Origin: Acetobacterium woodii DSM 1030
Lineage (GTDB): Bacteria > Bacillota > Clostridia > Eubacteriales > Eubacteriaceae
Length of the DNA: 64,000 nt
Direction of reading: 5' to 3'
NCBI RefSeq assembly: GCF_000247605.1
Contig: NC_016894.1
Coordinates: 558,001 to 622,000, forward strand
Shown: positions 3,300 to 61,736 of the stretch, in pieces
Layout of the letters: each line of letters opens with the position of its first letter
How positions within the stretch are numbered: the first letter of the stretch is position 1
Position numbers and translations under genes: made by a program
The notes under the pieces: generated by a model
Told to the model about the DNA's origin: nothing
What the model saw: only the letters and a program-made list of their open reading frames with translations
The model's database searches: none

Positions 3300-3470
3300 T
3301 AGGCAATTGCGAAATTAAAAAACATCGAACAACGGTTGCTTTGGGTGCAGTTTCCACAAACGATTTCATAACGTGTAGGCGAACAGTTCATCGAACTGTC
3401 CGCCGTACAGTGTAGAAATTGTTTCGTGAGAAACTGAGCCCAAAGCTTATGGCACTTTCGCAATTGCCTA
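3300..3470 (-). mobile_element. Family-1 MITE, copy A (171 bp)
   Basis: A 171-bp element with TAGG...CCTA ends and GGCAATTGCGAAA terminal inverted repeats; the two arms pair over most of its length. It is inverted relative to copies at 5521, 7788, 9720 and 40734. Flanks ACATACTCT (left) and ATATAGTCT (right) match at 7 of 9 positions and look like an aged target duplication. Unlike the other copies it ends 63 nt, not 26-29 nt, before the next start codon. It encodes no transposase. Confidence 0.88.
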
Positions 3471-24064: not shown

Positions 24065-24125
24065 AACAGGTTAAAAATGACAACATGCCGAATAAGATAA
24101 AGCAGGGTAATAAAATAATAGCGAA

Positions 24126-24290
24126 TTCAAGGTGCCGATTATGAATATCGGAGAATAGGGAAGCTTAGAAAGCACGGACCCACCACTGTGAACAGGGACG
24201 AAGTCTTAATAACCACTGAGCATAAGCTTGGGAAGGTGAGAATAGGATGAACTGTTAGTCAGGAGACCTGCCTTGATGTGAGAAAAAGGC
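24126..24290 (+). ncRNA. Cobalamin riboswitch
   Basis: Contains the class hallmarks in order: AATAGGGAAG near the 5' side, CCACTGTGAACAGGGACGAA, then CCACTGAG, GGGAAGG, and the B12-box-like TAGTCAGGAGACCTGCC. A terminator hairpin lies downstream (24333-24369), so control is probably by transcription termination when cobalamin is bound. It precedes the FecCD/BtuCDF-type importer genes. Confidence 0.92.
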
Positions 24291-27488: not shown

Positions 27489-27554
27489 GACTGATAACAT
27501 CGGGAACTTCACTTGATGAATTGGTTAAATCTGATATAATAATAAGCAAAGATA

Positions 27555-27651
27555 AAAACACAGTTCTGGTTGGTAGTCCAGACGCAACTTAAAGTTGTCA
27601 GTAACCTGCCTCCTAAGGTTGTCCGTTCTTTGTCAGTATCTATTTAGGAGG
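27555..27651 (+). ncRNA. yjdF-type riboswitch leader
   Basis: Structured leader directly before a yjdF-family gene. Visible stems include CAACTT/AAGTTG and AACC...GGTT. CCTCCTAA at 27609-27616 is perfectly complementary to TTAGGAGG at 27644-27651, which contains the Shine-Dalgarno sequence. This is a ready-made on/off switch for translation. The yjdF RNA class, which binds azaaromatic compounds, is known to occur in this position; membership is inferred from the gene and layout, not from a covariance search. Confidence 0.7.
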
Positions 27652-33639: not shown

Positions 33640-33654
33640 TTATTTTAATTAGAG

Positions 33655-33752
33655 AGTTGGGGAGCTTATGCATTTAGGCTGAGAGGAAGTAAATGGCTAC
33701 TTCGACCCATGTACCTGATACGGATAATGCCGGCGGAGGGAAAAACAGGTTG
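33655..33752 (+). ncRNA. TPP riboswitch (thi element)
   Basis: Has the conserved GGGGAGC, GGCTGAGAGG, ACCTGATACGGATAATGCCGGCG and GGAGGGAA blocks in order. A terminator follows at 33757. It precedes thiM-thiE-HAD-thiD. Confidence 0.95.
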
Positions 33753-33756
33753 AGTT

Positions 33757-33784
33757 GCTGCGCATTAATGTGCAGCTTTTTTTG
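33757..33784 (+). terminator. TPP riboswitch terminator
   Basis: GCTGCGCAT-TA-ATGTGCAGC stem followed by TTTTTTT. Confidence 0.85.
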
Positions 33785-53073: not shown

Positions 53074-53616
53074 ATGAGCAAGGGAAACAGTGAAGCGCAA
53101 TTTAAAAAAATATATACACAATATGTTGATGAGATCTATCAGTATGTATTTTTGCGAACTGGCTTAAATGCCGAAATCGCGGAGGATCTTACCCAAGATA
53201 TCTTTTTAAATGTTTTTAAAGGCCTCAAACAATTCAAAGGGTTGTGTTCCGAGCGAACCTGGGTGTTTAAGATTACCAAAAATAAGATTAATGATTTTTA
53301 CCGAAAGCATTATCGGCAAGGCCTGGAACCGCTTCCAATTGAGGATGAAGGGATCATGCAAATAAGTGATCCCCAACAAGATATCAGTACTTTTATGGAC
53401 AAAGTTCTAACACGTGAGGACATCGTTGATTGCCTGAATCAATTGCCGGAGCATTATAAGTTGGTGCTATTACTAAAATATATTGATGGCAGAAGTGTTA
53501 AGGAAATTGCCATGATGACTAATAAATCGACCAAAGCCATCGAAAATATTTTATTGCGGGCCAAGGGTAGTTTTATTAAAGCTTACCAAACCTTTAAGAT
53601 GGAGGAGACACAATGA
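53074..53616 (+). CDS. ECF-type RNA polymerase sigma factor
   Basis: 180 residues. Region 2 (about 10-80) has YQYVFLRTGLNAEIAEDLTQDIFLNVF and FKGLCSERTWVFKITKNKINDFYRK split across it. Region 4 (about 115-170) has LPEHYKLVLLLKYIDGRSVKEIAM. Length is normal for ECF factors. Its gene overlaps the next by four bases, and that gene may encode a membrane anti-sigma factor. Confidence 0.93.
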   Translation: MSKGNSEAQFKKIYTQYVDEIYQYVFLRTGLNAEIAEDLTQDIFLNVFKGLKQFKGLCSERTWVFKITKNKINDFYRKHYRQGLEPLPIEDEGIMQISDPQQDISTFMDKVLTREDIVDCLNQLPEHYKLVLLLKYIDGRSVKEIAMMTNKSTKAIENILLRAKGSFIKAYQTFKMEETQ

Positions 53617-53885
53617 AAAATAATACCGATGATTTTATCGAAAAAGCCTTAAATTCCCTGACAGAAGGATCACAACCAAGTCAAAATCAAAAACAACGGA
53701 TGTTGGAAGATCTGCTTTTTCAAATACAAACGGAGGAAGATTCAAAAGTTGGCCGATTTAGAAATATGGTGACTGTTTATCCCTGGCGCTTTGGATTTGG
53801 GGTCTCGGCCCTTCAGGCGGTTTTGTTGACACTGATGTTTGGCTCAAACTATACAAATTTTATTTTGCAATTTTTAGGGAGGTAA
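53613..53885 (+). CDS. Small membrane protein, possible anti-sigma factor
   Basis: 90 residues: a soluble N-terminal part (NTDDFIEKALNSLTEG...) and one membrane segment near residues 60-85. The gene overlaps the ECF sigma stop (ATGA). The size, topology and coupling fit a minimal anti-sigma factor, but it lacks a zinc HxxxCxxC motif. Not assigned to a family. Confidence 0.7.
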   Translation: MKNNTDDFIEKALNSLTEGSQPSQNQKQRMLEDLLFQIQTEEDSKVGRFRNMVTVYPWRFGFGVSALQAVLLTLMFGSNYTNFILQFLGR

Positions 53886-53888
53886 ATA

Positions 53889-54458
53889 ATGGCGGATTTT
53901 TTAGAAGTTCTTAATCGACCGGCAGAAGCGTTCAAACGTGGGAATGTCAAAATTTCTGCAATTTTGGTGGGGATAACGATTGTCATCGTGACTATTTTTG
54001 ATGCCATGATGCATTATCTGGTGAATGGCAAAGATTACCCAGTCGATATTAATATCTTTAAATTGTTATTACTGGCGAGTTTGGGCGTAGTGACCTATCT
54101 GGCCATCTGTGGAATATTCTGGGGTATTGGCAAAATATTTGGCAGTCAAACGCAACTGCGGGTTTATCTTAAAACCTGGGGTTTGACTTATATTCCGACG
54201 ATGATCTGTGGCGCGATCGTTGTGCTGGTGGAAACGTATTTTACACTTTTCTGGAATAATTCTATTTGGGGATTATTGCTTAATATCGTTTTTGGCGGCA
54301 TTTTGATCTGGAAAACCATTCTTTATGTGGTGTTTTTAAAAGAAGTGACCGGTCTGCGGGGAAAAAAATTGATGGGCGCATTTTTGCTTTGTGGGATCGG
54401 GATTCTGGTACTTGCTTTTTTAAATCTGTATGTGGGATTAAAAACCCCGATTCTATAA
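53889..54458 (+). CDS. YIP1-family membrane protein
   Basis: 189 residues, five membrane segments. The opening ADFLEVLNRPAEAFKR and the central LAICGIFWGIGKIFGSQTQLRVYLKTWGLTYIP match the Yip1 domain. Function in bacteria is unknown. It is the last gene of the lipoprotein/sigma/anti-sigma-like operon. Confidence 0.8.
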   Translation: MADFLEVLNRPAEAFKRGNVKISAILVGITIVIVTIFDAMMHYLVNGKDYPVDINIFKLLLLASLGVVTYLAICGIFWGIGKIFGSQTQLRVYLKTWGLTYIPTMICGAIVVLVETYFTLFWNNSIWGLLLNIVFGGILIWKTILYVVFLKEVTGLRGKKLMGAFLLCGIGILVLAFLNLYVGLKTPIL

Positions 54459-54547
54459 GATTTCAGGCGTCATCATCGGGCTTCCTGATAAAGAACTTAA
54501 GACCCCGAGGGATTATGTTAGAAAGCGGTTAAATTTGTAAATACTGC

Positions 54548-54576
54548 TTGATTTTGATAATCTTTTATAGTACAAT
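54548..54576 (+). promoter_or_regulatory. Promoter of presumed non-coding RNA / spe leader
   Basis: TTGATT, 17-bp spacer, TACAAT. The only clear promoter between the YIP1 gene and speD. Confidence 0.6.
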
Positions 54577-54582
54577 TCGAAA

Positions 54583-54997
54583 CGAATGATAGAATTAGAT
54601 TTAAGTCTATTTTGCATATTCATAGATTAAGTTTATGGATAGTGTAAAGAATTATTTTGACCATTTCTTTACCGGCTTTAATGCCCGGGGATAGAAATCG
54701 AAGGCCATACGGACAGCTAGGTCAAATGCCGATTGGCAACTTTCGTTGCCTTATTGATTGAGTTTTGACTCAAATTTTATAAGTTGGTTACTTAAAACCG
54801 TGTGCCGGAATGCACATCACACTTGTGAAACAATCAATAAGAGTAGTAAAAGTAAGTTCTTGCTATATAGACTCTAGTTTCTACGTTTGGGATCATGAAC
54901 AAATGGTGCGCTTAGGCACTTAATTTGAAATAACAAATCAGTAGAAATAAACTCAAGTGGATGAACAGCAAATGCTGAAGGATCACTTGAGTTTTTT
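54583..54997 (+). ncRNA. Candidate structured RNA, about 415 nt, unassigned
   Basis: A long region without a coding frame, lying between a promoter (54548-54576) and a strong terminator (54951-54997). It contains several good stems: GGCAAC-TTTC-GTTGCC, TTGAGT-TT-GACTCAA and GTGTG...CACAC. It could be an independent small RNA or a terminating leader (attenuator or riboswitch) for the polyamine genes that begin 58 bases later. I find no tmRNA, RNase P, 6S or SRP marks and no known riboswitch core. Confidence 0.4.
54951..54997 (+). terminator. Terminator upstream of speD
   Basis: ACTCAAGTG and CACTTGAGT arms around a 24-base loop that contains AGCA/TGCT pairing, then TTTTTT. It would either end a separate RNA or attenuate the spe operon. 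Confidence 0.85.
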
Positions 54998-55054
54998 GTT
55001 TTATTAAAACGTTGTGGCACAATGATCAGACAAAAAATGGAAACGGGGTGGATT

Positions 55055-55849
55055 ATGGATAATAAATTAAAGTTGAATGGTTTTAACAATTTAACCAAGT
55101 CGTTAAGCTTTAATATTTATGATGTATGTTATGCCAAAAGTGAACGGGAACAACGTGATTATATTGCCTATATTGATGAACAATATAATTCGGATCGGTT
55201 AACCAATATTTTAAATCATGTAACTGAAATGATCGGGGCCAGGGTACTCAATGTATCCAAACAAGATTATGATCCGCAAGGGGCCAGTGTCACCTTTTTA
55301 ATAGCTGAAGAAACATTTTTGCGGGAATACCGGGAAGAAAATGTTGAGAAAAGCAATTTGCAAGGCGATACAATCGTAGCTCATTTAGATAAAAGTCATG
55401 TCACTGTGCATACCTATCCGGAGTTTCATCCGGATACTTCGATTGCGACTTTTCGGGTAGATATTGATGTCGCTACCTGCGGCGAAATTACCCCTTTAAG
55501 TACCCTCGATTATTTAATTGGAAGTTTCGATTCGGATATCATCACCATGGATTATCGTGTGAGAGGGTTTACCCGGGATGTCAGCGGAAAAAAACTATTT
55601 ATGGATCATAAGATTTGTTCAATTCAGGATTATATTGATGACAATACCCTGAGAGAATATGATGCCATTGATATTAATGTATATCAATCCAATCTGTTTC
55701 ATACAAAAATGATGCTTAAGGAAATTTGTCTCCAGAATTATTTATTTAATACCGATGCGTATGAGCTGCCGCCGCGAACACGACTGCAGATCACCGAAAA
55801 CATTCGGCGTGAAATGATCGAAATTTTCAGCGGCAGTAACGTGTATTAA
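55055..55849 (+). CDS. speD: S-adenosylmethionine decarboxylase (E. coli-type)
   Basis: 264 residues from the ATG at 55055, where the sequence matches the E. coli-type start ([20 protein letters not shown]); an open frame extends 33 bases earlier. The self-cleavage site is [13 protein letters not shown] (Ser makes the pyruvoyl group). The length matches the class 1 long form (about 264 aa), not the short Bacillus SpeH. It provides decarboxylated SAM, the aminopropyl donor for SpeE. Confidence 0.95.
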
Positions 55850-55868
55850 AAACTTATGAGGGTGGCGA

Positions 55869-55922
55869 GGAAGACCGTATCAAGCAATTGTTAATCAGTT
55901 GTCGGTACGACTGATTTTTTTG
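55869..55922 (+). repeat. Collapsed family-2 remnant acting as terminator
   Basis: GACCGTATCAAGCAATTGTT and TTGTCGGTAC are the left and right ends of family 2 with the interior deleted. The product folds as AATCAG...CTGATT followed by TTTTTTT, making an intrinsic terminator between speD and speA. Confidence 0.6.
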
Positions 55923-56004
55923 TTCATCTGTTTAAAGTATCATAACACTTTCAAAAATCATGTCAGTTTAGATGATTAGATTTACATTTGGGAAGGAAAA
56001 AAAC

Positions 56005-57465
56005 GTGCCAAAACTAAATCAAGAACGGATGCCTATCATGGAGGCACTCAATGAGTTTAAGCGAAATCGTCTGGTTCCCTTTGATGTGCCCGGCCATAAA
56101 CGCGGTAAGGGAAACTCAGAATTAACAGAATTTTTAGGGGAACGCTGCATGTCACTCGACGTCAATTCGATGAAACCGCTGGATAATCTTTGTCACCCGG
56201 TTTCGGTAATCAAAGAAGCAGAGGCTTTGGCGGCGGAGGCTTTTGGTGCCAAGCAGGTGTTTTTTATGGTCAACGGGACCACCTCAGCGGTTCAGACAAT
56301 GGTATTGTCCGCTTGTAAAAAAGGAGAAAAAATTATTTTGCCCAGAAATGTTCATCGCAGTGTTATCAATGCGATGATTCTGGGGGGCGCGATTCCGGTT
56401 TATGTGAACCCCGAAACCAATAATGAAATTGGCATCTCATTAGGAATGACCCTCGCGGCAGTGGCCCAGGCGATTCGGGAGAATCCTGATGCCAAAGCGA
56501 TTCTGGTTAATAATCCCACCTATTACGGGGTTTGTTCGAACTTAAAGGCAATTACCGAAATGGCTCACGAACATGGCATGCTGGTGCTGGTCGATGAAGC
56601 GCATGGGACACACTTCTATTTTGGTGAAAATATGCCTATCAGTGGGATGGCGGCTGGGGCGGATCTGGCTTCGGTAAGTATGCATAAATCGGGAGGTTCG
56701 TTAACCCAAAGCTCCTTTTTGTTAGTCGGAGAAAGTGAACGAATAAATCCTGGCTATGTCCGCCAAATTATTAATTTGACTCAGACTACCAGCGGCTCTT
56801 ATCTGTTGCTGTCCAGTTTGGATATTTCGCGTAAAAATCTGGCAGTGAATGGGAAGGCCATCTTTAAAAAAGTAACCGAAATGGCCCAATATGCCAGAGA
56901 CGAAATTAACCAGATTGGTGATTATTACGCCTATTCCAGAGAGTTGATTAATGGTGATACGATTTATGATTTTGATGTCACCAAACTTTCGGTTAATACT
57001 TTAAATGTCGGCTTGGCCGGGATTGAGGTTTATAGTATTTTACGGGATGAATACGATATTCAGGTCGAATTTGGTGATGTCGGCAATATTTTAGCCTATA
57101 TTTCGGTCGGTGACAGTCAGCGAAATTTAGAACGGCTGGTCAGTGCCTTAGCTGAAATCCGGCGGATCTACAAAAAAAGCAAAGCTGGGATGCTGCAATA
57201 TGAATACATAAATCCCGAGGTTGCAGTAGCCCCGCAGGAAGCTTTTTATGCCGAAAAAGAAGCGTTATTACTGGAAAAAAGCGGTGGTCGAATCTGTAGT
57301 GAATTTGTCATGGCGTATCCTCCGGGGATTCCAATTTTGGCACCGGGGGAAAAAATAACGCAAGAAATTTTGGATTCGATTGAATATGTTAAAGATAAGG
57401 GCTGCTTTTTGACCGGACCCGAAGACATGGAAATCAAATATCTCAAGGTGCTGAAGGAGGATTAA
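56005..57465 (+). CDS. speA: Arginine decarboxylase, Orn/Lys/Arg decarboxylase class I fold
   Basis: 486 residues from the GTG at 56005 with GGGAAGG upstream; a frame from 55972 (ATG) has no ribosome binding site. It is of the short Bacillus-type fold III-related AAT-like family: VPFDVPGHKRGKGN, MVNGTTSAVQTM, VDEAHGTHF and the PLP Lys in SVSMHKSGGSLTQSS. Arginine is the most probable substrate because agmatinase (SpeB) follows; lysine decarboxylation cannot be excluded by eye. Confidence 0.88.
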   Translation: MPKLNQERMPIMEALNEFKRNRLVPFDVPGHKRGKGNSELTEFLGERCMSLDVNSMKPLDNLCHPVSVIKEAEALAAEAFGAKQVFFMVNGTTSAVQTMVLSACKKGEKIILPRNVHRSVINAMILGGAIPVYVNPETNNEIGISLGMTLAAVAQAIRENPDAKAILVNNPTYYGVCSNLKAITEMAHEHGMLVLVDEAHGTHFYFGENMPISGMAAGADLASVSMHKSGGSLTQSSFLLVGESERINPGYVRQIINLTQTTSGSYLLLSSLDISRKNLAVNGKAIFKKVTEMAQYARDEINQIGDYYAYSRELINGDTIYDFDVTKLSVNTLNVGLAGIEVYSILRDEYDIQVEFGDVGNILAYISVGDSQRNLERLVSALAEIRRIYKKSKAGMLQYEYINPEVAVAPQEAFYAEKEALLLEKSGGRICSEFVMAYPPGIPILAPGEKITQEILDSIEYVKDKGCFLTGPEDMEIKYLKVLKED

Positions 57466-57466
57466 G

Positions 57467-58318
57467 ATGGAATTATGGTTTACCGAAAAACACACCCCCA
57501 GCGTCAAGTTTTCCATTCAGGTGGATCGCCAGCTTTATTGCGGACAAAGCGAGTTTCAGCGGATCGATGTTTTTGATTCAAAAGAGTTTGGCCGTTTTTT
57601 AACATTGGACGGATTTATGATGCTGACTGAAAAAGATGAATTTATTTATCATGAAATGATGGTACATATTCCGATGGCGGTTCATCCGGCCCCTAAAAAA
57701 GTGTTGATTATCGGCGGCGGTGACGGCGGCGCAATCCGGGAACTGGTACGTTATCCGCTGGTGGAACACATTGATCTGGTCGAAATTGATGAGCTGGTGG
57801 TGGCGGTGTGCAAAAAGCATTTACCGCAAACCGCTTGTTGCTTTAGCGATGAGCGGGTGACGGTTCATTACCAGGACGGGCTGAAATTTATCCGTCGCTG
57901 CGAAAATGAATACGATCTGATTATTGTCGATTCAACAGATCCTTTTGGACCGGGAGAAGGTCTGTTTACCAAAGAATTTTATGGCAATTGTTATAAGGCC
58001 CTTAAGGAAGACGGGATTATGGTTAATCAACATGAAAGTGCTTTTTATCGCGATGATGCCGAGGCCATGCAACGGGCCCATAAACGCATTGTTGAGTCGT
58101 TTCCGATTAGCCGGGTTTATCAGGCTCATATTCCGACTTATCCGTCGGGCCATTGGTTATTTGGTTTTGCATCCAAAAAATACCATCCTATCGAGGATTT
58201 GAAAGCCGTAAAATGGAATGCGCTGGGGTTCAAAACCCGTTATTATAACACCCAATTGCATGTGGGCGCTTTTGCCTTGCCAAATTATGTGGAGGAATTA
58301 CTAAAAGATGTTGAATAA
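57467..58318 (+). CDS. speE: Spermidine synthase-family aminopropyltransferase
   Basis: 283 residues; AAGGAGG precedes the ATG, one base after the speA stop. Opens with ELWFTEKHTPSVKFSIQVDR; SAM-like fold with IIGGGDGGAIRELVRYP, VEIDELVV, and DSTDPFGPGEGLF for catalysis. It transfers aminopropyl from decarboxylated SAM to putrescine or, given the speA-speE-speB order, possibly to agmatine. Confidence 0.92.
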   Translation: MELWFTEKHTPSVKFSIQVDRQLYCGQSEFQRIDVFDSKEFGRFLTLDGFMMLTEKDEFIYHEMMVHIPMAVHPAPKKVLIIGGGDGGAIRELVRYPLVEHIDLVEIDELVVAVCKKHLPQTACCFSDERVTVHYQDGLKFIRRCENEYDLIIVDSTDPFGPGEGLFTKEFYGNCYKALKEDGIMVNQHESAFYRDDAEAMQRAHKRIVESFPISRVYQAHIPTYPSGHWLFGFASKKYHPIEDLKAVKWNALGFKTRYYNTQLHVGAFALPNYVEELLKDVE

Positions 58319-59156
58319 AAATATCGATACCTTTTTAGGTTGTGATAATAGCTATTCGGAAGCGCAAGTGGTTGTTTTTGGAGCGCCGTTTGACTCAACC
58401 ACATCGTTTCGGCCGGGAACCCGATTTGCCAGCCGGACGATGCGGGGCGAATCGTATGGATTGGAAACTTATAGCCCTTATCAGGATAAAGACCTTGAAG
58501 ACTTTGCCGTTTTTGACGGTGGTGATTTGGAACTTTGTTTTGGTGATACCGAGAAAGCTTTGGCGGCGATTGAAACCTATACCACCGCTATTTTAAGCGA
58601 TAACAAACTGCCGGTGATGATTGGGGGCGAACATCTGGTGACGTTGGGGGCGGTGCGGGCAGTGGCCCGAAAATACCCGGATTTGCAGGTGGTTCATTTT
58701 GATGCGCATGCCGATTTACGAGATGATTACCTGGGGACAACCCTTTCTCATGCAACCGTGTTACATCGAGTTTGGGACATCATTGGCGATAACCGAATCT
58801 ATCAGTTTGGAATCAGGTCTGGGGAGCGCCGTGAGTTTGTTTGGGGAAAAAATCATGTTACCACCCAGAAATTCAATTTTGATGGGCTGGCAGCAGTAGT
58901 TGATAAACTTCAAGCTAAACCGATTTATTTCACCCTCGATCTGGATGTGTTGGACCCTTCGGTATTTCCCGGCACCGGTACTCCGGAACCTGGCGGCGTC
59001 AGTTTTATCGAACTACTGGAGGCGATGTTGCAAGTTACCAAGCTGAATATTGTCGGCTGTGATATCAACGAGTTATCACCAGTGTATGACCAGAGCGGAG
59101 CATCGACCGCGGTGGCTTGCAAGGTTTTAAGAGAACTATTATTGGCGATTGTTTAA
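58308..59156 (+). CDS. speB: Agmatinase / ureohydrolase
   Basis: 282 residues, overlapping speE by 11 bases with GGAGG upstream. Manganese-binding motifs GGEHLVTLGAVRA, HFDAHADLRDDY and DLDVLDPSVFPGTGTPEPGG. It hydrolyses agmatine to putrescine and urea, or N1-aminopropylagmatine to spermidine if SpeE acts first. Confidence 0.93.
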   Translation: MLNKNIDTFLGCDNSYSEAQVVVFGAPFDSTTSFRPGTRFASRTMRGESYGLETYSPYQDKDLEDFAVFDGGDLELCFGDTEKALAAIETYTTAILSDNKLPVMIGGEHLVTLGAVRAVARKYPDLQVVHFDAHADLRDDYLGTTLSHATVLHRVWDIIGDNRIYQFGIRSGERREFVWGKNHVTTQKFNFDGLAAVVDKLQAKPIYFTLDLDVLDPSVFPGTGTPEPGGVSFIELLEAMLQVTKLNIVGCDINELSPVYDQSGASTAVACKVLRELLLAIV

Positions 59157-59197
59157 AAGTGATCAAACATTAAATCGACTAAAATAATAAAAAGCAT

Positions 59198-59368
59198 TAG
59201 GTAATGGCGAAATTAAAAAACATCGAACAACGGTTGCTTGGGGTGCAGTTTCCACAAACAATTTTGTAACGTGTAGGCGAACAGTTCATCGAACTGTCCG
59301 CCGTACAGTGTAGAAATTGTTTCGTGCGAAACTGGACCCAAAGCACACGGCATTTTTGCAATTACCTA
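59198..59368 (-). mobile_element. Family-1 MITE, copy G, inside the polyamine cluster
   Basis: 171 bp with TAGG...CCTA ends. It is flanked by a perfect 11-bp duplication ATAAAAAGCAT (59187-59197 and 59369-59379). It ends 29 nt before the next start codon. The perfect duplication suggests the most recent insertion in the window. Confidence 0.95.
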
Positions 59369-59397
59369 ATAAAAAGCATATTAAGGAGGAATAAATT

Positions 59398-60597
59398 ATG
59401 GGAAAAGCATTAATTATCGGTTGCGGTGGCGTGGCCAGTGTGGCCATCCATAAATGTTGTCAGAATAGCGATGTGTTTACGGAAATTTGTATCGCCAGCC
59501 GGACTAAAAGTAAATGTGATGCATTAAAAGCGAAACTAGATGGCGGTGCTACCAAAATTACTACGGCGCAGGTGAATGCCGATAATGTTGATGAACTGAT
59601 TACGTTAATAGAAACAGTCAAGCCGGATGTGGTGCTGAATCTGGCCTTGCCATATCAGGATTTGACAATTATGGATGCTTGTCTGGCGACGAAAACCAAT
59701 TATGTCGATACTGCCAATTACGAGCCAATCGATACCGCCAAATTTGAATACAAATGGCAATGGGATTATCACGAGCGGTTTGAGAAGGCTGGAATTACGG
59801 CACTTTTGGGAAGTGGTTTTGATCCTGGGGTGACTGGCGTTTTTTCCGCTTATGCGATGAAACATCAATTTGATGAAATTAATTATATTGATATTCTTGA
59901 TGCCAATGCCGGCGATCATGGTTATCCTTTTGCAACCAATTTTAATCCTGAAATTAATATCCGGGAAGTCAGTGCGAATGGGAGTTATTGGGAAGAGGGC
60001 GAATGGATTGAAACGAAACCAATGGAAATCAAACGGGTCTACAATTTCCCGGAAATTGGTGAAAAGGATATGTATCTGCTTCATCATGAAGAGCTGGAGT
60101 CATTAGGCCAAAATATTAAAGGGATTAAACGGATTCGCTTTTTTATGACCTTTGGCGAGAGTTATCTAACTCACCTGAAATGCCTGGAAAATGTTGGCAT
60201 GACTTCAATCGAACCGATTGAATTTGACGGTAAGATGATCGTCCCGCTGCAATTTTTAGCGGCTGTTTTGCCAGATCCATCAACATTAGGCCCCCGCACC
60301 AAAGGAAAAACCAATATTGGTTGTATTTTCCGGGGAAAAAAAGACGGACAGGATAAAACTTATTATCTCTACAATGTTTGTGATCATCAAAAATGTTATC
60401 AGGAAGTCGGCTCGCAGGCTATTTCTTATACCACCGGAGTTCCGGCGATGATCGGGGCGATGATGGTAATGACGGGAGAATGGCAAAAACCGGGGGTTTA
60501 CAATATTGAAGAGTTCGATCCGGACCCTTTTATGGAAGCTTTAAACAAATGGGGATTGCCGTGGCAGGAAAGTTTTGATCCCGAGCTGGTCGACTAA
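59398..60597 (+). CDS. Carboxy(nor)spermidine dehydrogenase (saccharopine-dehydrogenase family)
   Basis: 399 residues; AAGGAGGAATAAATT precedes the ATG. N-terminal NAD(P) fold MGKALIIGCGGVASVAIHKC; TNYVDTANYEP, GSGFDPGVTGVFSAYA and the C-terminal SYTTGVPAMIGAMMVMTGEW. It joins aspartate semialdehyde with putrescine (or diaminopropane) reductively to carboxyspermidine. Two bases separate it from the decarboxylase gene. Confidence 0.92.
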   Translation: MGKALIIGCGGVASVAIHKCCQNSDVFTEICIASRTKSKCDALKAKLDGGATKITTAQVNADNVDELITLIETVKPDVVLNLALPYQDLTIMDACLATKTNYVDTANYEPIDTAKFEYKWQWDYHERFEKAGITALLGSGFDPGVTGVFSAYAMKHQFDEINYIDILDANAGDHGYPFATNFNPEINIREVSANGSYWEEGEWIETKPMEIKRVYNFPEIGEKDMYLLHHEELESLGQNIKGIKRIRFFMTFGESYLTHLKCLENVGMTSIEPIEFDGKMIVPLQFLAAVLPDPSTLGPRTKGKTNIGCIFRGKKDGQDKTYYLYNVCDHQKCYQEVGSQAISYTTGVPAMIGAMMVMTGEWQKPGVYNIEEFDPDPFMEALNKWGLPWQESFDPELVD

Positions 60598-60599
60598 AG

Positions 60600-61736
60600 A
60601 TGGAGTTAAAAGATGCGTTCAACGAACTTCCAACGCCGTGTTATATAGTTGACGAAACTCGCCTTATTAACAACTTGGAAATCCTTGATGAAGTTCAAAA
60701 CGAGACGGGTTGTAAGATCTTATTGGCCCAGAAAGCTTTTTCGATGTTTTCGCTTTACCCCCTGATTGGAAAATATCTGGCCGGGACGACCGCCAGTGGT
60801 TTATTCGAAGCGCGATTAGGTTATGAGAAAATGAAAAAGGAAAACCATGTGTTTGCGACCGCTTACCGGGAAGATGAGTTTGATGAGATTGTGAAATTTT
60901 GTGATCACATTGTATTTAATTCCTTCAATCAATGGCTGAAATATAAAAATCAGGCGCTGGCCGCGGGACGGGAATGCGGCATCCGGATTAATCCCGAATA
61001 TTCGACGCAGGATCACGCTATTTATGATCCTTGCGCACCGGGATCACGGATGGGGGTAACGCTGCAGCAATTTCGGCCCGAATTGTTAAAAGAAATAAAG
61101 GGACTTCATTTTCATACTCTTTGTGAACAGGATGCCGATGCTCTGGAGTCTACGCTGGCAGCCGTGGTAGATAAGTTCGGACACTATTTAAAGCAAATGG
61201 AATGGTTGAATTTTGGCGGCGGACATCACATTACCCGGGAAGATTACGATATTGATAAGCTGATTTCCTGTATCAATCGAACACAGGAAAATTATCAACT
61301 CAAAGTTTATCTGGAACCGGGTGAAGCGGTGGCTTTGAACACCGGATTTTTAGTGGCAAGGGTATTGGATATTGTTGAGAATGGCATAAAAAATGTTATC
61401 CTTGATACATCAGCCGCTTGTCATATGCCGGATGTTCTGGAAATGCCTTATCGACCCGAAATAATCGGTTCGGGATTGCCTTTAGAAAAACCGTTTACCT
61501 ATCGTCTCGGCGGACCAACTTGTTTGGCTGGCGATATTATTGGTGATTATGCGTTTTCGCAACCATTAAAGATTGGTGATCGCGTGGTGTTTCGGGATAT
61601 GGCTATTTATTCGATGGTGAAAAATAACACCTTTAACGGAATGAACCTCCCTGCCATTGCCATCTTTACCAAAGATAAGAAAATCCAAATCGTAAAAAAG
61701 TTTAGCTATGAAGATTTTAAAAACCGCTTATCCTAA
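60600..61736 (+). CDS. nspC: Carboxynorspermidine/carboxyspermidine decarboxylase
   Basis: 378 residues. Alanine-racemase-type barrel: TPCYIVDETRLINNLEIL, the PLP Lys in LLAQKAFSMFSLYP, WLNFGGGHHITREDYD, and the C-terminal GGPTCLAGDIIGDYAF. It decarboxylates carboxyspermidine to spermidine. The stop codon (AAC CGC TTA TCC TAA) lies inside a terminator hairpin that has been duplicated by family-2 copy 2d. Confidence 0.94.
   Translation: MELKDAFNELPTPCYIVDETRLINNLEILDEVQNETGCKILLAQKAFSMFSLYPLIGKYLAGTTASGLFEARLGYEKMKKENHVFATAYREDEFDEIVKFCDHIVFNSFNQWLKYKNQALAAGRECGIRINPEYSTQDHAIYDPCAPGSRMGVTLQQFRPELLKEIKGLHFHTLCEQDADALESTLAAVVDKFGHYLKQMEWLNFGGGHHITREDYDIDKLISCINRTQENYQLKVYLEPGEAVALNTGFLVARVLDIVENGIKNVILDTSAACHMPDVLEMPYRPEIIGSGLPLEKPFTYRLGGPTCLAGDIIGDYAFSQPLKIGDRVVFRDMAIYSMVKNNTFNGMNLPAIAIFTKDKKIQIVKKFSYEDFKNRLS

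Follow-up and report, generated by a model that had tools for sequence, protein, structure and literature searches.

The only proven spermidine riboswitch found in the searched literature is a rare variant of the SAM-I riboswitch. According to the accessible text of that report, it is a close four-stem variant of SAM-I with 13 representatives from a few Gram-positive genera, located upstream of polyamine genes (ldcC, speB, speE, and speD) and using a terminator/antiterminator platform with a predicted OFF logic; its authors stated that more polyamine riboswitch classes are surely still to be found (PMC10853860). The odc1 and potE motifs are likewise candidate RNA elements at polyamine-related genes, the former an alphaproteobacterial hairpin with a uORF and the latter a weak candidate that lies some 200 nt away from its gene; judged by description alone, from the accessible text, neither resembles the core described below (PMC8632094).

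In Streptococcus pneumoniae, the accessible text of a previous study described SN20, a 318-nt transcript with promoter and terminator located between SP0915 and SP0916, which was reported as an sRNA and in which a sequence motif led the authors to suggest an FMN switch (PMC2887815). F59, the namesake of Rfam family RF02440, lies inside the SN20 coordinates according to the accessible text of PMC3395615, and SP0916 is an arginine decarboxylase gene, as given in that of PMC7531197. Going by the Rfam name and these published coordinates, the SN20 locus (SN20/F59/srn235) is likely a homologue of the RNA investigated here, which also possesses a promoter and a terminator in front of polyamine genes. 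Only the small RF02440 piece of this RNA had been catalogued, as an unexplained small RNA.

The leader upstream of speD in Acetobacterium woodii

The window, i.e., the whole stretch of 64,000 nucleotides of A. woodii DNA that was analysed, contains a gene-free leader between the end of an ORF at 54458 and the speD start at 55055 (window positions; all features below are on the + strand). The upstream ORF is predicted from its sequence to encode a membrane protein and has no NCBIfam match; for SpeD, the ATG at 55055 is the best reading of the start, and an ATG at 55022 opens the frame too. A promoter (TTGATT-17-TACAAT, 54548..54576, 9/12 consensus match) places the predicted transcription start near 54583, and an intrinsic terminator (54949..54998; stem 54949-54962/54982-54994 plus U-tract) is supported by sequence, fold, and homologues, so that the predicted transcript covers about 54583-54998 (416 nt). 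This terminator was not listed by the scan, probably because its loop is longer than the scan allows.

The first-pass annotation had described the region as running from its own promoter to a strong terminator before speD, with stable stems and no open frame, and these boundaries hold. By number, promoter matches as good as this one are at chance level (eight found versus 7.2 expected in the scan); the promoter was nevertheless accepted, because its hexamers, spacing, and place are identical in four congeneric loci (L009, L011, L015, and L019). The stems are borne out by a folding energy of -118 kcal/mol for 54580-55010 (z = -5.35; none of 100 shuffles as good), the terminator stem and U-tract are plain in both sequence and fold, and the ORFs within the leader are all short. 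Directly before the leader, 53074-54458 holds an ECF sigma factor gene, a short ORF (possibly an anti-sigma gene, which is a guess), and the membrane-protein-like ORF. Elsewhere in the window, three riboswitches above cut-off were observed, namely Cobalamin (24113-24289), azaaromatic (yjdF; 27542-27642), and TPP (33648-33759).

The genes behind the leader encode S-adenosylmethionine decarboxylase (speD, 55055..55849; TIGR03331), an Orn/Lys/Arg decarboxylase (56029..57465, start possibly 55972; LdcC and arginine decarboxylase models match weakly, under their cut-offs), spermidine synthase (speE, 57467..58318; TIGR00417 and NF002010), agmatinase (speB, 58308..59156; TIGR01230), a carboxynorspermidine synthase-like protein (CASDH, 59398..60597; NF043000 at 417 bits, below the cut-off of 800), and a probable carboxynorspermidine decarboxylase (CASDC, 60600..61736), an ORF which we take to be CASDC from its neighbourhood. 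The operon (55055-61736) apparently combines two routes to spermidine, one via SpeD/SpeE and one via CASDH/CASDC.

Comparison with Rfam showed that 54658-54732 matches RF02440 (SpF59_sRNA, "ldcC RNA") at 56.9 bits against a gathering score of 37.2, across the whole model (positions 1-54 of 54). The claim of the first-pass annotation that no known RNA hallmark is present was thus wrong, and its suggestion of a new non-coding RNA survives in part: the 54-position fragment is RF02440, while most of the RNA is uncatalogued. The Rfam comparison that it had proposed as a check therefore did return a known family, over a fragment only. RF02440, typed 'Gene; sRNA' in Rfam, represents roughly one third of the conserved RNA; its model pairs P1 and P2 only, ends in a conserved tail, leaves P3 unpaired, and contains neither P4-P10 and P0 nor the terminator and antiterminator. 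No mention of RF02440, 'ldcC motif', or 'ldcC RNA' was found in the open-licence PMC literature searched, nor any description of the full RNA or its mechanism, and term search of the accessible text of PMC6429828, PMC8632094, PMC11477304, PMC12323649, and PMC7990898 did not find the full RNA either. The source of the Rfam label 'ldcC RNA' was not found, so an earlier description elsewhere is possible.

RF02440 is the only family above cut-off in 54400-55100, five other listed matches being far below theirs, and up to E 10 this interval gave neither a SAM-family nor a T-box match; known families apart from RF02440, SAM-I and T-box among them, were rejected on this basis. The leader could still be thought a member of the SAM-I-variant spermidine class, since the same kinds of genes follow both RNAs, but the missing SAM-family match and the close four-stem SAM-I architecture published for that class make the chance virtually nil. 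Compared via the SAM families and the published description, the two cores are unrelated.

Homologues and their gene context

Searches for RF02440 homologues in overlapping genome sets gave 20 of 101 relatives, 40 of 391 genomes of the class, and 11 of 299 genomes of the phylum, and an exact-pattern scan of genome contigs gave at least 118 stretches; the same pattern had no match in viral contigs. One match (L128, Actinomycetes MAG), which by eye seems to have arisen by chance in coding DNA, was removed on account of its score; loci ending near the core (such as L009, L050, and L106) and loci without anchors (L015, L019, and L175) were dropped from the counts. Some genomes are present in both collections, and duplicates were removed for counts of distinct loci. 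From 154 loci, 107 (below 90% identity, 185-330 nt) were kept, and 67 of these plus the window formed alignment A1, which leans towards well-behaved members because they were chosen for clean ends.

A covariance model, R1, recovers the window copy as the sole copy in its genome (167.2 bits, E 4.9e-52), though the alignment from which it was built includes that copy. R1 also matches in 30 of 299 genomes of the class to which genome G503 belongs, including four loci (L201-L204; E 1.6e-23 to 3.7e-17) in a single genus with genomes of 1.8-2.1 Mb, probably the streptococci. Weaker R1 matches (L205-L207, E 1.4e-8 to 1.6e-4; L206 belongs to the same genus as L201-L204) by eye lack the GACC/ACGGACAG domain and keep much of the P5-P10 half, together with a terminator and a decarboxylase-like gene. 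All three show a GGGGCUUUCGCGCCC-like hairpin near the place of the missing RF02440 domain and form a divergent subtype. Named carriers include Acetobacterium, Paenibacillus, Bacillus, Neobacillus, Lactococcus, Kurthia, Blautia, Faecalibacterium, Acidaminococcus, and Phascolarctobacterium, which we take to represent Clostridia, Bacilli, and Negativicutes; further carriers are two MAGs labelled Spirochaetes and Synergistaceae. Two copies (L004 and L021) occur in genome G006, which is of the same genus as the window; one of them is divergent and lies on a 7.1-kb contig, being either a second operon or contamination.

A polyamine-related operon lies behind the RNA in all 158 collected loci with more than 700 nt downstream, just as the SAM-I variant precedes polyamine genes. 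Within 900 nt, the first operon-protein match is SpeD in 56, a decarboxylase in 45, and CASDH in 18 of them. The other 39 carry a PotA homologue, with 50.6-93.3% identity to a query that is itself one of the 39; at one of these loci (L132) a short ORF stands between the RNA and the PotA homologue. When eight of the 39 PotA proteins were scanned, spermidine/putrescine transporter ATPase was the best NCBIfam match in each, three of them above the model cut-off. After removal of duplicates, 152 loci remained (SpeD 52, decarboxylase 44, CASDH 17, PotA 39), so that this RNA occurs in at least 152 distinct loci, in contrast to the 13 examples in the accessible description of the SAM-I variant (PMC10853860). 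The open frames upstream, picked by a mechanical rule, are for the most part unrelated: 102 of 156 are singletons and the largest cluster has seven members, with 96 frames in the same direction as the RNA and 60 in the opposite one.

A conserved core of about 220 nt

Homologous sequences stay alike over about 220 nt, corresponding in the window to a conserved core (54658..54875, P1-P10) that we regard as an aptamer candidate on the basis of the R1 match and covariation. RNAalifold on A1 (68 sequences) gave 39 pairs, 13 of them with two-sided changes. In a 56-pair structure, 93.5% of cells are paired across the 68 sequences, against 88.2% after shuffling and 33-44% in slid controls, and 27 pairs have two-sided changes against 12.6 shuffled, with a covariation score of 0.195 versus 0.102; none of 500 shuffles equalled the structure in any of these three values, although the shuffled and slid controls lean towards the structure because it was drawn from these same, related sequences. 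Covariance analysis, which the first-pass annotation had suggested as a check, is in favour of a structured RNA.

Two-sided changes occur in every pair of P2, P4, and P7 and in some of P1, P3, and P6. P1 (54658-54662/54720-54724) has 35 two-sided changes in its outer pair, P2 (54663-54668/54693-54698) has five covarying pairs, and P3 (54703-54705/54716-54718) changes from GC to CG in four sequences. The P4 hairpin (54735-54740/54745-54750; five covarying pairs, 86.6% paired) is followed by P5 (54751-54759/54832-54840; 97.4% paired and near invariant), which encloses P6 (54760-54762/54769-54771) and the P7-P9 junction. The latter is made up of P7 (54786-54789/54796-54799; 85.6% paired), P8 (54800-54805/54812-54817; 63.9% paired), whose columns are poorly aligned because two loop arrangements exist, and P9 (54776-54784/54821-54829; 98.5% paired). 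P10 (54841-54844/54871-54874; 97.8% paired) is near invariant, with no two-sided change. Except for one P9 pair, the pairs of P5, P9, and P10 hardly vary or change on one side, and many unpaired bases of the core are near invariant as well.

A further helix, P0, would close the core: its 5' strand (54647..54653) pairs with 54855-54861 in the P10 loop, forming a pseudoknot with P10, and these pairs were verified in the sequence of the window. In 76 distinct loci (67 others were not parsed), the P0 pairing has -7.71 kcal/mol for own versus -5.52 +/- 0.20 kcal/mol for permuted partners (0/2000), while the reversed-flank control gave -2.72 versus -2.67 kcal/mol. P0 competes with the inner P10 pairing AGUAA/UUGCU, as both use the 3' side of inner P10; the mean own-locus energies are -7.7 (P0) and -2.8 kcal/mol (inner P10), a rough comparison with a fixed octamer and differing lengths. 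We prefer P0 over the inner P10 pairing, which is kept within the 56-pair structure. Many loci (e.g., L069, L121, and L141) also have an AGAGUCUUUYC-like stretch on the 5' side of P0; P10 may have this 5' stretch as a second partner, because it is complementary to the GACUCU of P10.

Some polyamine genes are controlled by leader-peptide attenuators, and a uORF of this kind was considered here, since an ATG lies within the motif (54726-54728 in the window, opening an 11-codon frame) and 68 of the 152 distinct homologues have ATGCCG, 27 of these likewise with an 11-codon frame. The ATG is, however, missing in the other 84, the frame ranges from 5 to 100 codons where present, and conservation follows base pairs; the leader peptide was rejected on these grounds as extremely improbable.

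The proposed terminator/antiterminator switch and its candidate ligand

The 3' strands of P8 and P9 contain a stretch (54815..54825) complementary to 54954-54963 in the 5' arm of the terminator. Checked base by base, CAUC-A-CACUUG pairs with CAAGUG-GAUG in the window, and the same single-base bulge is common in other loci. Of 169 loci considered, the P9 strand could be parsed in all but 11. Among the remaining 158 (not the same 158 as in the gene-context set), 151 have a terminator by the rule applied, and three of the seven without one have incomplete sequence. In a sample of 60 of the 151 terminators, 55 reach -15 kcal/mol, versus 3 of 180 dinucleotide shuffles. The 5' arm often starts with CAAG or CAGG and can pair with the P8/P9 strand of the same locus. 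When each leader was scanned without bias for the site that pairs best with the arm, this site fell on the P8/P9 strand at 96 of the 151 loci, compared with 13.3 for shuffled arms (90 of 145 distinct loci, 11.9 expected); the other 55 arms pair best elsewhere, some of them, judged by eye, owing to a wrong terminator call.

Own and permuted arms were compared in 96 of the 151 loci (CARG anchor in the arm, duplicates removed), giving -10.14 versus -8.29 +/- 0.21 kcal/mol (0/2000), whereas the reversed-arm control gave -6.40 versus -6.22 kcal/mol; among 21 loci less than 70% identical, the values were -9.55 versus -7.39 kcal/mol (0/5000). The complement is often common to several loci, as the own arm has a median rank of 0.22 when compared with all arms. 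The antiterminator thus appears to be kept by covariation, and by sequence comparison the predicted expression platform is mutually exclusive with the core. The ensemble of the window without ligand already favours the core: P9 has a probability of about 0.85, and the antiterminator reaches 2-5% in the nascent RNA while the terminator is still unfinished. In the window, thermodynamic folding alone does not show the switch, and kinetics or unmodelled factors would therefore be needed. One locus (L113; spirochaete MAG, 8000-base locus, near 3404) uses another platform, in which a Shine-Dalgarno-hiding hairpin (-15.1 kcal/mol) replaces the terminator and, through its 5' side, pairs with the strand from the core (-18.9 kcal/mol).

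A stand-alone, trans-acting small RNA, with the terminated leader as its product, would agree with the Rfam type of RF02440 and with the presence of SN20 and F59 on S. pneumoniae sRNA lists, as far as the accessible text of these goes. Against it, the RNA is upstream of and co-oriented with polyamine genes in every one of the 158 loci, upstream frames are mostly unrelated, the antiterminator covaries with its own locus, and the L113 platform hides a Shine-Dalgarno sequence; the terminated RNA of a switch would resemble an sRNA anyway. We consider a trans-acting role very unlikely and take the leader, as far as comparison of homologues can tell, to be a real, conserved RNA that acts in cis on polyamine genes. 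Its core, helices, terminator, antiterminator complementarity, and polyamine gene context are all established by such comparison, and a conserved structured domain in a 5' leader is what riboswitches generally have; an orphan riboswitch class is very likely.

In the mechanism that we propose, transcription starts near 54583 and the nascent RNA can fold into the core P0-P10. When the P8/P9 strand (54815-54825) is held in the core, the 5' arm of the terminator would be free, the terminator (54949-54998) would form, and transcription would stop before speD. When the core is unstabilised, the same strand would pair with 54954-54963 as the antiterminator, and speD and the rest of the operon would be made. 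Because core and off-hairpin compete for one strand, a stabilised core should mean OFF, and its stabilisation by polyamine binding would amount to end-product feedback. We infer direct ligand binding, spermidine as the ligand, and this direction of switching from the design of the leader and its gene context.

The same terminator/antiterminator leader might be sensed by a protein or another factor, with no small molecule involved. Protein-controlled attenuators work by the same logic, and ligand binding by the core is putative. No upstream frame, however, is common widely enough to be a dedicated regulator, and the core, with its length of about 220 nt and its many unpaired bases that hardly vary, looks like an aptamer, which leaves a protein sensor unlikely. 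That the riboswitch binds some other small molecule, be it putrescine, agmatine, cadaverine, arginine, SAM, or decarboxylated SAM, is possible though doubtful: decarboxylase and SpeD operons are compatible with several of these compounds, but the CASDH-first and PotA operons carry the same RNA. The CASDH/CASDC and Pot routes use no SAM, and SAM, dcSAM, and MTA consequently do not fit as ligands. The product common to all RNA-bearing operons is spermidine, and because SpeD, CASDH, and uptake operons share the RNA, spermidine, not SAM, is the likeliest ligand. Of the two senses suggested by the first-pass annotation, polyamine sensing is strongly supported by structure, gene context, and terminator/antiterminator design, with direct sensing as the presumed step, and SAM sensing is disfavoured for the reason just given.

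Published pneumococcal data, in the accessible parts of the reports, on balance fit polyamine feedback. Deletion of potABCD lowers putrescine and spermidine and raises speA 16.9-fold and speE 14.4-fold by qRT-PCR, a rise that RNA-seq in the same study did not confirm (PMC8540371). The uptake inhibitor AMXT 1501 raises five pathway genes 1.4-1.9-fold, while DFMO lowers two pathway genes 1.5-fold, which does not agree with feedback (PMC10887117). The actual signal could be a protein or another polyamine.

Taken together, we think it likely that the leader acts in cis to switch off transcription of the genes for polyamine synthesis and uptake, and that it is most probably a spermidine riboswitch. 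It is also somewhat more probable than otherwise that it represents a second spermidine riboswitch class, structurally unrelated to the first and far more widespread, in which a pseudoknotted aptamer of more than 200 nt, found from Bacillota to Spirochaetes- and Synergistaceae-labelled MAGs, coordinates polyamine synthesis with uptake through transcriptional and translational platforms, and which has been hidden in Rfam as a 54-position 'sRNA'. If this is true, the Rfam sRNA entry becomes a cis-regulator, and the RNA shows how one polyamine can be picked despite the general stickiness of polyamines. As a strong and common candidate for a polyamine riboswitch, it might account for feedback control of how many gut and soil Bacillota make and import polyamines.
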